In this document: positions 53,972 through 62,684 of the stretch, in pieces | How positions within the stretch are numbered: position 1 is the first letter of the stretch | Layout: each line of letters begins with the position of its first letter | Origin: Acidovorax sp. 210-6 | Lineage (GTDB): Bacteria; Pseudomonadota; Gammaproteobacteria; Burkholderiales; Burkholderiaceae_C | Assembly: GCF_010020825.1 (NCBI RefSeq) | Contig: NZ_JAACJE010000001.1 | Coordinates: forward strand, 3,410,001-3,474,000 | Length of the DNA stretch: 64,000 bases | Direction: 5' to 3' | Notes under the pieces: model-generated | Database searches by the model: none | What the model saw: the letters and a program-made list of their open reading frames with translations, nothing else | What the model was told of the DNA's origin: nothing | Translations under genes and position numbers: made by a program

Positions 53972-54029
53972 GCGCTCTATTCCCCGTGCAATGTGACGCC
54001 GAGGGCGATTGTCACTGGCGCGCTCCAGA

Positions 54030-54140
54030 CCAGCGGCCGCCGCGCAAGGGTCGCCCCGCCGCGCTGAGCAAGCGCTCCCCCTTCCCGCATCGCGCAGCGA
54101 GGCGAGAGAAGGGGGAAGGCGCGCAGCGCCACAGGGGGTT
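54030..54140 (-). repeat. GC-rich post-stop hairpin repeat, copy 2 (after lpxC)
   Basis: Minus strand: CCCCCTGTGGCGCTGCGCGC, CCCCCTTCTCTCGCC, GC hairpin, GGAAGGGGGA, then a GGCGGGGCGACCC tail. It begins 8 bases after the lpxC stop, in the same orientation as the gene. Confidence 0.85.
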
Positions 54141-54148
54141 GTTTCATG

Positions 54149-55072: not shown

Positions 55073-55164
55073 CCCGCAATTTTAGTGCGGCTGGCCCTCG
55101 GCCGCAGCACTGTTCAGCTATGGCTTCAATAGAAACAAAAACGCCCGCGCCTTAGCGCCCCAAG

Positions 55165-55272
55165 CCAGCGACCGCCGCGCAAGGGCCGCCCCGCCGCGCT
55201 GGCGGCGCCCCCCTTCCCGCGCTGCGCAGCAGCGCGAGAGAAGGGGGGAGCGGCGAAGCCGCTCGGGGGGTT
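55165..55272 (-). repeat. GC-rich post-stop hairpin repeat, copy 3 (after ftsZ)
   Basis: Minus strand: CCCCCCGAGCGGCTTCGCCG (stem AGCGGC with UUCG loop), CCCCCCTTCTCTCGCGCTG, GGAAGGGGGG and a CGGCGGGGCGGCCC tail. It begins 8 bases after the ftsZ stop, same orientation, and sits between ftsZ and lpxC. Confidence 0.88.
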
Positions 55273-55280
55273 GCTCCGAA

Positions 55281-58739: not shown

Positions 58740-59743
58740 GCCTGAACCTCCTGCGGCGGCGAGTCGAGCGCGGCGCTGGCCAGCAGGCGCAGGCACAGGT
58801 CTTCATAGCTGATGCCTGCGGCGCGCGCCGACATGGGCACCAGCGAGTGGCCGGTCATGCCGGGGGACGTGTTCATCTCCAGCAGGAAGGGCTTGCGGTC
58901 GCTGGCGCGCACCATCAGATCCGCGCGCCCCCAGCCGCGGCAACCCAGCGCACGGTAGGCGGCCAGCACGATGCGCTGGATCTCGCGTTCCTCGGCCTCG
59001 GGTAGTCCACTGGGACACTGGTATTTCACGTCGTCGGTGAAGTACTTGTTCTGATAGTCGTACGCACCGTCCGGCGCATTGATGCGAATCACCGGCAGCG
59101 CCACGGCATCTGCGCCCTGGCCCAGCACCGGGCAGGTGACTTCCTCGCCTTCGATGAATTCTTCGCACAGCACGTCGGGGTCGTAGCGCGCCGAGAGCCG
59201 CACGGCTTCCTGCATGTCCGAACACCCCTGCACCTTGGTCACTCCGATGGATGAGCCCTCGCGCGGCGGCTTGACGATCAGCGGCAGGCCCAGCTCGTCG
59301 GGCACGGTGCGCACGGTTTCACGGTTCTGGCGCTCGGGCGCCAGCCAGACGTAGCGTGGCGTGGGCAGTCCCTCGGCCAGCCAGACGCGCTTGGTCATCA
59401 CCTTGTCCATGGCAATGCTGGACGCCATGACGCCCGAACCGGTGTACGGAATGCCCAGCAACTCCAGCGCGCCCTGCACCGAGCCGTCTTCCCCATGCCG
59501 CCCGTGCAGCGCGATGAAGCAGCGCGCATAGCCAGCGCGCTTGAGTTCGCACAGTTCGGTGTGCGCGGGGTCGAAGGCATGGGCATCCACGCCGCGCGCG
59601 CGCAACGCCTGCAGCACACCCGCACCGGACATGAGCGAGACCTCGCGCTCAGCCGAGGTGCCGCCCATGAGCACGGCCACCTTGCCCAGCGCGGCCGGGG
59701 TGGGCAGAAGCTGCCCGGTGGTCTTGGCATCCATTGCGGTCAT
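58736..59743 (-). CDS. ddl: D-alanine--D-alanine ligase
   Basis: ATP-grasp ligase for the D-Ala-D-Ala end of peptidoglycan precursors. [70 protein letters not shown] and [18 protein letters not shown] are all present. The ATG at 59743 overlaps the murC stop (ATGA). 335 aa, with a short N-terminal extension before KVAVLMGG. Confidence 0.98.
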
Positions 59744-61173
59744 TGCGCTTTCTCCTCCTGCCCTCTTTGCTCTGTATTTGATAGCAACTCAACCAGTCTT
59801 CCCGGCATGTTGCCGATGGAGCCTGCGCCCATGCACAGCACCACGTCGCCGTCCTGCGCCATGGCTGCGATGGCCTGGGGCAGATCAGCCACGTCCTCCA
59901 CAAACAGGGGCTCCACACGCCCCACCACGCGCAGCGCACGCGCCAGCGATCGACCGTCGGCAGCCACCACGGGCGCCTCGCCTGCGGCATAGACTTCGGT
60001 GAGCAGCACGGCATCGGCGCTGCCGATGACCTTGACGAAGTCCTCGAAGCAGTCGCGCGTGCGCGTGTAGCGGTGTGGCTGGAAGGCCAGCACCAGACGC
60101 CGCCCGGCAAAGGCACCGCGCGCCGCCGCCAGCGTGGCCGCCATTTCCACAGGGTGGTGGCCGTAGTCATCGATCACGGTGAAGCGCCCACCATCCTTGG
60201 CGGGCAGGTCGCCATAGCCCTGAAAGCGCCGCCCGACGCCCCGGAAGCTGGCCAACGCACGCAGCACGGCCTCGTCGGGAATGTTCAGCTCCACCGCCAC
60301 GGCAATGGCCGACAGGGCGTTGAGCACGTTGTGCTCGCCCGCCAGGTTGAGCACCACCTCCAGGTCGGGCAGCGTCACGCCATTGCGGCGCTGCACGGTG
60401 AAGTGCATCTGCGCCCCCACAGCCCGCACGTTGACGGCGCGCACCTGCGCGTCCTCCGAAAAACCGTAGCTGGTGATGGGGCAGGACACCTCGGGCACGA
60501 TCTCGCGCACCGCCGGGTTGTCGATGCACAGAATGGCCGTGCCGTAGAACGGCATGCGGTGCAGGAAATCGACAAAGGCCTTTTTGAGCCGCGCGAAGTC
60601 GTGGCCGTAGGTCTCCATGTGGTCGGCGTCGATGTTGGTCACGACGGCCATCACGGGCAGCAGGTTGAGGAACGAGGCGTCGGATTCGTCAGCCTCGACC
60701 ACGATGTAGTCGCCGCTGCCCAGCTTGGCGTTGGCCCCGGCACTGTTCAGGCGCCCGCCGATGACGAACGTGGGGTCCAGTTCCCCCTCGGCCAGCACGC
60801 TGGTGACCAGGCTGGTGGTGGTGGTCTTGCCATGCGTGCCAGCAATGGCGATGCCGCGCTTGAGGCGCATGAGCTCGGCCAGCATGAGCGCCCTCGGCAC
60901 CACGGGGATTTTCTTTTCGCGCGCGGCCAGCACCTCGGGGTTGTCGCTTTTGACGGCGGTGGAGGTGACCACCGCATCCGCCCCGGCAATGTGCGCTGCC
61001 GCATGCCCCACAAAGGTCTGCATGCCCAGGCCCTGCAGGCGACGCAGCGTCGCGCTGTCGGACAGGTCCGAGCCCGAAATGCGGTAGCCCAGGTTGAACA
61101 GCACCTCGGCAATGCCGCTCATGCCAGCACCCCCAATGCCGACGAAATGGATGTGGCGGATGGCGTGTTTCAT
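59740..61173 (-). CDS. murC: UDP-N-acetylmuramate--L-alanine ligase
   Basis: Adds L-Ala to UDP-MurNAc. [19 protein letters not shown] at the N-terminus, P-loop [14 protein letters not shown] near 114, [14 protein letters not shown] and the C-terminal [12 protein letters not shown] and FQPHRYTRT are standard. 477 aa. The start is only one base from the edge of a 266 bp repeat element, whose end supplies the bases (GGACAGG) in the ribosome-site position. A half copy of the two-hairpin repeat lies near its 3' end. Confidence 0.98.
59769..59785. repeat. Half copy of the two-hairpin repeat (3' end of murC)
   Basis: GCTCTGTATTTGATAGC matches the first hairpin only and is nearly the same as the half copy in murG at 61534-61550. 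Confidence 0.5.
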
Positions 61174-61174
61174 A

Positions 61175-61440
61175 GAGCCTGTCCAAAGTCTTTTCGCGGC
61201 GCCCGCAAGGAAGCAAGAAGCCGCAATCTAGGCGCGTACCGCAGCCCATGCTGGTAGCCTGGGCAAGGTGCGCAACGACGAGTGCGGCTTCTTGCTGCCT
61301 TGCCCGAAGGGTTGCCCCGCAGAGGCAGCGCCTGCGGCGTTGCCCATCCTCGCCGCACACCAGTGCGGCTTGCGGCGGGCGCCTTGCATCCGCTGCCTCT
61401 GCGGGGCAACGGGCACCACGAAAAGACTTTGGACAGGCTC
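61175..61440. mobile_element. 266 bp MITE-like element between murG and murC
   Basis: Ends are perfect inverted repeats of 22 bp (61175-61196 and 61419-61440, beginning GAGCCTGTCCAAAGTC), extending to 31 bp with two mismatches. Inside are two further inverted pairs: 61205-61229 with 61279-61303 (core GCAAGAAGCCGCA) and 61311-61330 with 61391-61410 (GTTGCCCCGCAGAGGCAGCG). No supported coding frame, so it would be non-autonomous. It lies exactly in the murG-murC junction. The parent transposon family is not identified. Confidence 0.8.
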
Positions 61441-62500
61441 ATGCGAGCTCCTCACACGCGGTCACCACCTCGCGGGTGGCGTTGATCTTTTGCATTGTTT
61501 TGGCCTTCAGCGCCCGTTCCATCAGCGCTGTACGCTCTGTATTTTGTAGCATTTCGGCCAAGCTTTGGGGAGAAAGATCGCGTTGTTGCACCAACCATCC
61601 ACCCCCGGCCTGCACCAGGAACTGCGCGTTGGTGGTCTGGTGGTCGTCCACCGCCGCCGGAAACGGCACAAACACGGCGGCAGCGCCCACAGCGGCAATC
61701 TCTGTCACCGTGCTCGCGCCCGCGCGGCAGACGATGATGTCGGCCTGCGCGAAGGCGCTGGCCGTGTCTTCGATAAAGGGCGTCAGCTCGGCCTGCACAT
61801 CGGCGGCCTCGTAGTTGGCGCGCAGTTGCTCGATCTGCGCCGCGCCACTTTGGTGTGTGACCACAGGGCGCCGGTCCGGCGGGATGAGCGCCAGCGCCTG
61901 GGGCACGATGTCATTGAGCGCACGCGCCCCCAGGCTGCCACCCACCACCAGCAGGCGCAGCGGCCCGGTGCGGCCCGCAAAGCGCTCTTGCGGCGCCTCC
62001 TGGCGCGTGAAGGCAGCGCGCAGCGGGTTGCCCACCCACTGGCCTTTCTTGAGCACCTCCGGAAAGGCCGTGAACACGCGGTCGGCCACGCCCGCCAACA
62101 CCTTGTTGGCCATGCCAGCCACCGAGTTCTGCTCGTGCAGCACCAGCGGCTTGCCGGCCAACACAGCCATCATGCCGCCCGGAAAGCTGATGTAGCCGCC
62201 CAGGCCCACCACCACATCCGGCTGCACCCGGCGCACCACGCACCAAGCCTGCCAGAAGGCGCGCAGCAGCCGCAGGGGCAGCAGCGCCAGCGTGGCGAGG
62301 CCCTTGCCGCGCACACCGGAAAAGTCGATGGTCTCCAGCGCAAAACCATGCGGTGGCACGATGCGCGCCTCCATGCTGTCGGGTGCCCCCAGCCAGTGCA
62401 CACGCCAGCCGCGCGCACGCAGCTCCTCGGCCACGGCCAGACCGGGGAAGATGTGGCCGCCGGTGCCTCCGGCCATGATGAGGGCGGTCTTGGCGCTCAT
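61439..62500 (-). CDS. murG: UDP-N-acetylglucosamine--N-acetylmuramyl-(pentapeptide) pyrophosphoryl-undecaprenol N-acetylglucosamine transferase
   Basis: Makes lipid II from lipid I at the inner face of the membrane. GT28 motifs: MAGGTGGHIFPGLAVAEEL, GGYISFPGGMMAVL, LHEQNSVAGMANKVLA, VVGGSLGARALND and CRAGASTVTEIAAVG. The ATG at 62500 starts [12 protein letters not shown] and overlaps the stop of the small upstream ORF. The stop TGA at 61439-61441 is completed by the first two bases of the MITE-like element. 353 aa. Confidence 0.98.
   Translation of the reverse strand: MSAKTALIMAGGTGGHIFPGLAVAEELRARGWRVHWLGAPDSMEARIVPPHGFALETIDFSGVRGKGLATLALLPLRLLRAFWQAWCVVRRVQPDVVVGLGGYISFPGGMMAVLAGKPLVLHEQNSVAGMANKVLAGVADRVFTAFPEVLKKGQWVGNPLRAAFTRQEAPQERFAGRTGPLRLLVVGGSLGARALNDIVPQALALIPPDRRPVVTHQSGAAQIEQLRANYEAADVQAELTPFIEDTASAFAQADIIVCRAGASTVTEIAAVGAAAVFVPFPAAVDDHQTTNAQFLVQAGGGWLVQQRDLSPQSLAEMLQNTERTALMERALKAKTMQKINATREVVTACEELA
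61534..61550. repeat. Half copy of the two-hairpin repeat (3' end of murG)
   Basis: GCTCTGTATTTTGTAGC, differing from the murC half copy at two positions; only the first hairpin of the full repeat is present. Confidence 0.5.
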
Positions 62501-62667
62501 ACACGCCCTCCTCTCATCAGGCGCTTCGCGCCTGGCATTGCTGGCGCAATGCGCGGTTTGTTTTGGTGAAACAAACTGCTCATACGCGGCCTCCGCGCAT
62601 CGAATACTGCGCATTCGGCAGCGCTGGCGCGCTGCAGCAGCCCGTTTTGGTGAAACAAACTGCTCAT
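62497..62667 (-). CDS. Coupled small ORF between ftsW and murG, 56 aa
   Basis: The ATG at 62667 overlaps the ftsW stop (ATGA), with GGAGG upstream, and the TGA overlaps the murG ATG (ATGA), so the frame fits both neighbours exactly. The product is two 28-residue halves, each beginning MSSLFHQN, because of an exact 41 bp direct repeat 84 bases apart. The last six residues, MRGGRV, equal the FtsW C-terminus but with partly different codons. No family is known to me. It could be a real coupling peptide or a by-product of a duplication that kept the frames. Confidence 0.4.
62560..62600 (-). repeat. 41 bp direct repeat, downstream copy
   Basis: Identical to 62644-62684 over 41 bases; includes a GGAGG ribosome-like site, ATGAGC and the MSSLFHQN codons. 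Confidence 0.95.
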
Positions 62668-62684
62668 ACGCGGCCTCCGCGCAT
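62644..62684 (-). repeat. 41 bp direct repeat, copy overlapping the ftsW 3' end
   Basis: Covers the last six ftsW codons (MRGGRV) plus stop and the next 20 bases. The exact second copy lies at 62560-62600. Its ftsW part is also palindromic with the preceding bases (CTGCTCAT...ATGAGCAG). Confidence 0.95.

Follow-up and report, generated by a model that had tools for sequence, protein, structure and literature searches.

Elements that resemble the one described here in some of their features are known from several groups of bacteria. Chunjie, a MITE of Geobacter uraniireducens, measures 178–235 bp and has terminal inverted repeats (TIRs); the title of its original paper, as given in the reference list of a later review, speaks of an operon that was entered with its structure undisturbed, and the available text of that review states that Chunjie-1 disrupts one of two phosphate uptake operons (PMC10969869). 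The Correia (NEMIS) elements of Neisseria are also small and bounded by TIRs, and they may form part of an mRNA and adjoin a dcw gene, whereas they differ from the present element in using mostly TA targets, in measuring most commonly 104–108 or 153–157 bp, and in carrying an IHF site in their long forms (PMC2649163, available text). REP and BIME sequences, with their GTAG or CGTC tags, form hairpins that are likewise often arranged as inverted pairs and are widespread in Proteobacteria, REPs measuring 20–40 bp (PMC3733652, available text). Moreover, several families of hairpin repeats are described in Pseudomonas fluorescens (R0, R2, R6, R178 and others), and the ends of R0 and R2 are identical to those of an insertion sequence (IS) (PMC2718517, available text).

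The element reported here was found in a window of 64,000 nucleotides, corresponding to positions 3410001–3474000 of a contig in a genome of 4.2 Mb (G000). It separates two genes of the dcw cluster that we take to be murG and murC, the names given in the first-pass annotation (Table 1). Going by the title of its original paper, Chunjie offers a precedent for a MITE in an operon (PMC10969869, reference list), and the comparisons with Correia/NEMIS (PMC2649163, available text) and with the P. fluorescens R families (PMC2718517, available text) are made by described features. Identity with REP/BIME sequences is ruled out, since a 266-bp element with 31-bp TIRs and duplicated flanks is set here against a palindrome of 20–40 bp, and the structured hairpin tips discussed below are found inside elements of ~160–270 bp with terminal repeats and duplications (PMC3733652, available text). 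As far as these sources describe them, Correia elements, tagged REPs and the P. fluorescens repeats are the nearest known kinds seen for the tip-bearing elements. With MITEs of the IS5 family, the element has in common its terminal repeat and the 3-bp TNA duplication of its relatives, matching the ISs in loci L276 and L273, whereas it differs in its two tip-bearing inner hairpins, for which the tip model R1 finds no match in the IS stretches of L276 and L273 at E 0.1.

The features of a MITE are found together in this element, which is short, non-coding and bounded by arms of 31 nt that are 94% complementary, and which has dispersed copies with common ends, a target duplication and empty sites. 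It includes two further inverted repeats of 25 and 24 nt (92% each), and the stretch 61165–61450 is predicted to fold at −201.2 kcal/mol, compared with a shuffle mean of −124.0 (sd 5.3; z −14.5; 0 of 200 shuffles as low), which bears out the two strong inner hairpins noticed in the first-pass annotation.

Table 1. Positions, in the window, of the element and of its two flanking genes.
Feature	Positions	Strand	Details	Evidence or score
Non-autonomous element (MITE)	61175..61440		266 bp, non-coding, between murG and murC	inverted repeats, fold, empty sites, further copies
Terminal inverted repeat, murC side	61175..61205		begins GAGCCTGTCCAAAGTCTTTTCG	ends of the type of IS5-family IS in L276 and L273
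Terminal inverted repeat, murG side	61410..61440			
Inner hairpin 1	61204..61305	+	structured tip TAGGCG...GCAACGAC	model R1: 91.7 bits, E 3.6e-24 (hairpin among the 20 R1 was built from)
Inner hairpin 2	61310..61410	-	structured tip AAGGCG...GCAACGCC; opposite orientation	model R1: 97.8 bits, E 6e-26 (hairpin among the 20 R1 was built from)
3-bp flank ATA	61172..61174		target duplication copy, murC side	
3-bp flank ATG	61441..61443		target duplication copy, murG side	one mismatch relative to ATA
murG stop codon TGA	61439..61441	-	T is a flank base, GA are element bases	
murC start codon ATG	61171..61173	-	one base off the element end	
murC coding sequence (presumed)	59740..61173	-		
murG coding sequence (presumed)	61439..62500	-		start set by codon-usage script

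The reading favoured here, with a probability of about 0.8, is that a non-autonomous element whose ends are those of an IS5-family transposon entered an ATGA overlap between murG and murC and that stop and start were rebuilt; its mobilisation in trans, its subsequent history and a coupling role of its stem would complete this picture. The insertion itself is best seen in the junctions of relatives. A 471-base stretch of the murC 5' region was compared with 26 genomes of the same genus (probably Simplicispira) and matched in 25 of them, G019 giving no match and G016 a match of 29 bases, which left 24 readable junctions. The element is present at three of these (G000, G023 and G041), where 265 nt separate the murG stop from the murC start, while nineteen, assigned by eye and not by script, are of the ATGA type, i.e., ...ATGAA containing the murG TGA with a 4-nt overlap. 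The junction is also empty in the close relative G003 (94% over the murC stretch), and that of G015 reads TGATG. A MITE-like insertion at this coupling site had been proposed at first pass, with empty junctions in close relatives and a second copy in the genome as the checks to be made; both were found (the nineteen ATGA junctions and the TGATG junction among the 24; a full-length copy at 78% identity, together with partial copies), and the ends are of IS5 type. The remaining junction, that of G014 (locus L037), holds another spacer, of 79 nt, in which part of the murC start is apparently repeated and after which comes a strong GGAGG site.

The filled and empty alleles show how both codons were rebuilt. 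On the coding strand, G041 reads GAGC-TAT-GAGCC...GGCTC-TAT-GAAAC, with flanks TAT/TAT, and the element-free G017 has one TAT copy (GAGCTATGAAAC, GAGC-TAT-GAAAC); in G000 and G023 the left flank is CAT (CAT/TAT). The element entered the ATGA overlap, in G041 with a 3-bp duplication, TAT on the coding strand; there, the left TAT and the first bases of the element, GA, recreate the TGA stop of murG, and the right TAT followed by GAAAC keeps the ATG start of murC. The G and A of the murG stop are indeed bases of the element, and the earlier claim that both proteins were left unchanged agrees with the rebuilt stop and start. The excision given in the first-pass annotation has to be corrected, however: deleting 61175–61440 plus one base (61174–61440) gives GCA TAT GAA, which opens murG and leaves no ATGA, whereas removing 269 bases, that is, the element with one 3-bp duplication (e.g., 61174–61442), restores ...GAG CTC GCA TGA / ATG AAA. 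Two points count against the favoured reading, namely that the triplet duplicated at murG–murC is TAT and not the TNA of IS5-type insertion (TAT/TAT in G041, CAT/TAT in G000), and that its two copies differ in the own genome. The site is a clear example of a transposon entering a zero-space junction of essential genes, where the target triplet and its own first bases rebuild the codons.

Judged by its ends, which are common to IS5-family ISs, the element is probably derived from this family, presumably from the TNA-duplicating group that carries the label IS1031. An IS5-family IS in the congener G014 (L276) has the ends GAACGTGTTCACGATCTTTTC / GATCGTGAACACGTTC, like those of the element, with TAA flanks, and its protein matches DUF4096 and DDE_Tnp_1 in Pfam and transpos_IS5_3 in NCBIfam; an IS with such ends is also found on a Moraxella plasmid (L273). 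The element would have been moved in trans by a transposase of the IS5 family, and it looks orphaned in its own genome today, because a 99-residue query from the Moraxella-plasmid IS finds no transposase there at E 0.001. The end pattern of the element (at most one mismatch) occurs in 12 of the 26 genus genomes, in some cases as single ends, and other copies start with GAACC, GAGCC, GAACG or GAGCG. Flanks of type-1 copies were collected in 19 rows, including the G000 and G023 copies of the murG–murC site: 12 have identical 3-bp flanks (11 TNA, namely TAA, TTA or TGA, and one ATA, in G041) and seven have unequal ones, which speaks against the favoured reading. Plasmid spread of the exact element was considered and rejected, PLSDB having no match for the element or for its copy L002.

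In element-free alleles, the usual ribosome site of murC is a GAGGAG-like stretch within murG, and the best anti-SD pairing upstream of murC amounts to −5.9 to −9.3 kcal/mol in 19 of the 21 (weaker in G001, −1.9, and G012, −3.2). The first-pass annotation had suggested that the element supplies a new start signal for murC, a claim that holds weakly: with the element present, the best anti-SD pairing upstream of murC is −3.9 kcal/mol in G000 and G023 (−4.4 in G041), weaker than in those 19 empty alleles, and the GGACAGG at the element end is buried, since in the predicted mRNA every one of its bases pairs, within the outer stem, with element bases just past the murG stop. This outer stem would place the murC start beside the murG stop and keep the ribosome site of murC hidden; when translation of murG ends, the ribosome at its stop would occupy the opposite arm of the stem and leave the site partly open, and murC translation would stay tied to murG through the stem in place of the overlap. 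The idea of a latch opened by the ribosome arises because a stop-bound model, in which hard constraints forbid pairing at the ribosome-covered bases, makes the 18 bases UUUGGACAGGCUCUAUGA more often single-stranded, their mean unpaired probability going from 0.21 in the free RNA to 0.43–0.58 with a ribosome on the murG stop, a range that follows the bases covered. In this model, however, most of the G residues of GGACAGG find other pairing partners, the four of them being mostly paired (about 0.1–0.25 unpaired) with 12 nt covered. The modelling thus suggests that a ribosome halting on murG partly frees the buried murC site and, if such a stem latch works, translational coupling can outlast a long insertion.

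Among the alternatives, the one that survives best, at a little under even odds, is that the element is a neutral passenger, the weak start being sufficient for murC and the stem having no coupling role. The 79-nt spacer tolerated at the same junction in G014 fits this explanation, as does the orientation of the tip, which shows no bias relative to transcription (26 cases in the same and 26 in the opposite direction, counted for single-hairpin elements between codirectional genes). Stem pairing points the other way, as it has been kept in place by compensatory changes: among 110 stem pairs compared between G000 and G041, seven have changed on both sides and are still paired (1.15 expected), six are broken and three have changed on one side, and the comparison of G000 with G023 gives one double-changed pair that is kept and two that are broken. 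These double changes, however, are explained equally by selection acting on the stem and by one arm being copied from the other. The divergence of the element from that of G000, 1.9% in G023 and 11.3% in G041, also stands against neutrality when set beside 9.5% and 32% at murC fourfold sites. On the other hand, the spacers elsewhere in the cluster differ from those of G023 at 0/34, 5/164, 20/435 and 46/208 aligned sites, below which the 5/266 of the element does not clearly fall; because these spacers diverge comparably, constraint on the element is suggested at most, and the case for conservation stronger than neutral is ambiguous.

Less probable, and on balance unlikely, is a role by analogy with Correia (NEMIS) elements, in which RNase III would bind or cut the mRNA hairpin and so set the ratio of upstream to downstream message. 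The very stable long stems within the presumed operon transcript would suit such a role, RNase III is able to bind or cleave Correia elements, one of which provides the N. lactamica dcw gene dcaC with a promoter on its 5' side (PMC2649163, available text), but 61100–61520 contains no sigma-70-type promoter match. Moreover, no terminator-like or promoter-like site was found on the dcw sense strand in 61100–61520, and a terminator or promoter role in dcw was rejected; the three terminator-like sites of this interval (0.5 in shuffles) are all on the non-dcw strand.

Regarding the history of the murG–murC copies, the three elements form one clade (support 0.966) with a mutual identity of 89–98%, compared with at most 82% to the nine other copies compared. 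In the murC and murG trees, G041 groups with the element-free G004 (in that of murG, also with G017) and G000/G023 with the element-free G003, the murG tree nesting G003 beside G023 at 0.854. Because filled and empty hosts are mixed on these trees, simple inheritance of one insertion fails, and for the same reason the three copies would go back to one insertion that was then lost or replaced in some lines, or that was spread via recombination. Two independent insertions at the same site would account for the interleaved alleles and for the different flanks (CAT/TAT and TAT/TAT), although this is improbable given that none of the three elements has a closer relative outside this trio and that all have TGTCC in their ends, where other type-1 copies have TGTTC, TGTTT or TGTCT. 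As far as the trees and ends can tell, two hits fit less well than a single insertion after which the element was lost or its allele replaced in some lines, or than a transfer accompanied by recombination. That the 266 bp are an old spacer of the dcw cluster and not an insertion is hardly credible, since 21 of the 24 readable junctions, including that of the close relative G003, are without the element (20 overlapping genes and one different spacer) and no evidence in favour was found.

The inner hairpins of copies with different ends have a common folded tip, AGGCG...GCAAC. In an alignment of 20 hairpins (A1), 28 of the 32 predicted pairs have changed on both sides, and 91.3% of the cells pair, compared with 59.0% in shuffles (0 of 500 as high). 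Ten of the twelve invariant columns of A1 are imposed, because the pattern by which the hairpins were chosen demands them, requiring (A/T)AG(A/G)CG and CAACnnCG; among the columns free of the pattern, C25 and G69 are invariant, and G29, C32, C37, G38, C101 and C102 are found in at least 18 of 20. Type-1 elements picked by their ends alone bear the tip AG(A/G)CG...CAAC in 18 of 19 cases, although most of these loci had come from searches with the window element or with the tip itself. R1, the model built from A1, gives 34 matches in the own genome (weakest E 2.5e-7), which represent 25 elements, nine of them inverted pairs, and across the phylum it matches 47 of 299 genomes (own included) and 33 of 181 genera at E 0.001. 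The 30 R1 hits of L226–L244, a set that leans to the tip because R1 was trained on it, fit the strict tip pattern in 15 cases and AGGCG or AGACG plus CAAC in 27, the mean commonest-base frequency being 0.84 in the tip versus 0.51 in the arms.

A pattern scan of named genomes found at least 120 stretches, by title mostly Betaproteobacteria among the matches listed. The latter also include five contigs (L122, L138, L156, L176 and L207) of one MAG labelled Planctomycetota which, together with a MAG labelled Desulfovibrionaceae, may reflect binning errors. Plasmid matches covering 20–75% of the query, obtained with a Simplicispira copy and with L235, a query that its plasmid hits suggest to be of Pseudomonas type, come from Azotobacter, P. 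aeruginosa, Halomonas, Cupriavidus, Comamonas, Mitsuaria, Martelella and Variovorax, that of P. aeruginosa PA83 lying between two codirectional genes. The ends of tip-bearing elements vary (GARCSTGTT..., TAGGGCCTGTT..., CTAGTGTC..., GGCGACGCTGAATAAG...), and GARCSTGTT is the only type tied to a transposase. The hits in L018 (2578–2680), L100 and L066 are flanked by sequence of the ATTCCATTTC type, a possible further end family of the tip. A sense-RNA function of the tip finds no support in the even split of its orientation. When 10 loci were searched in Rfam at E ≤ 1, the sole match to overlap an element was that of a miRNA model, in L019, which scored 30.9 bits against a threshold of 70; another 14 loci, searched at E ≤ 0.5, gave nothing at an element. 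No report of such a tip was found in a literature search that covered mainly open-access papers, and the available text of the 2024 review of prokaryotic MITEs mentions no such common core (PMC10969869). Tentatively, and with the odds leaning against it, the tip can be read as an old independent structured module in many unrelated short transposons of Pseudomonadota, with the consensus nAGGCGC-nnn-hairpin-nnn-GCAACnnnGC and stems rewritten in each lineage but kept paired, jointly with the reading of the murG–murC outer stem as a latch opened by the ribosome. If the tip is a real module, it would be a widespread structured element missing from Rfam and would call for a binding partner.

Sitting exactly in a stop codon does not set the murG–murC element apart, as such placement is predicted by the availability of sites. 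Each of the four TNA triplets is a stop codon on one strand or the other, which allows elements of this kind to insert where genes end and do no harm; relatives that duplicate TA and begin with G rebuild TAG. Related elements were found in stop codons in 17 of 51 testable cases, whereas the TA/TNA sites available outside genes predict 15.8 (P 0.35), and special targeting of stop codons was therefore rejected. The 51 are the facing gene contexts among 67 listed, the murG–murC site itself standing outside them, and 76 of the 157 elements with defined ends were left out for having no recognisable equal flanks; the counts are approximate, because gene ends come from a simple codon-usage caller trained on the window. 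In L186 (1537–1808) and L223 (1518–1789), the element lies between two convergent genes and completes a TAG stop at either end, one for each gene, and it therefore makes up the whole intergenic region.

Other repeats occur in the same cluster. Between ftsW and murG, 62560–62684 contains two identical 41-nt direct repeats spaced by 84 nt; 62520–62665 has no second match in the genome, and 62527–62661 is a gap in the G023 alignment. Moreover, two related repeats (47 nt at 89%, 65 nt at 78%) are located at 54020–54141 and 55155–55273, near the lpxC and ftsZ ends, and the lpxC–ftsZ spacer is the one that differs from that of G023 at 46 of 208 aligned sites.
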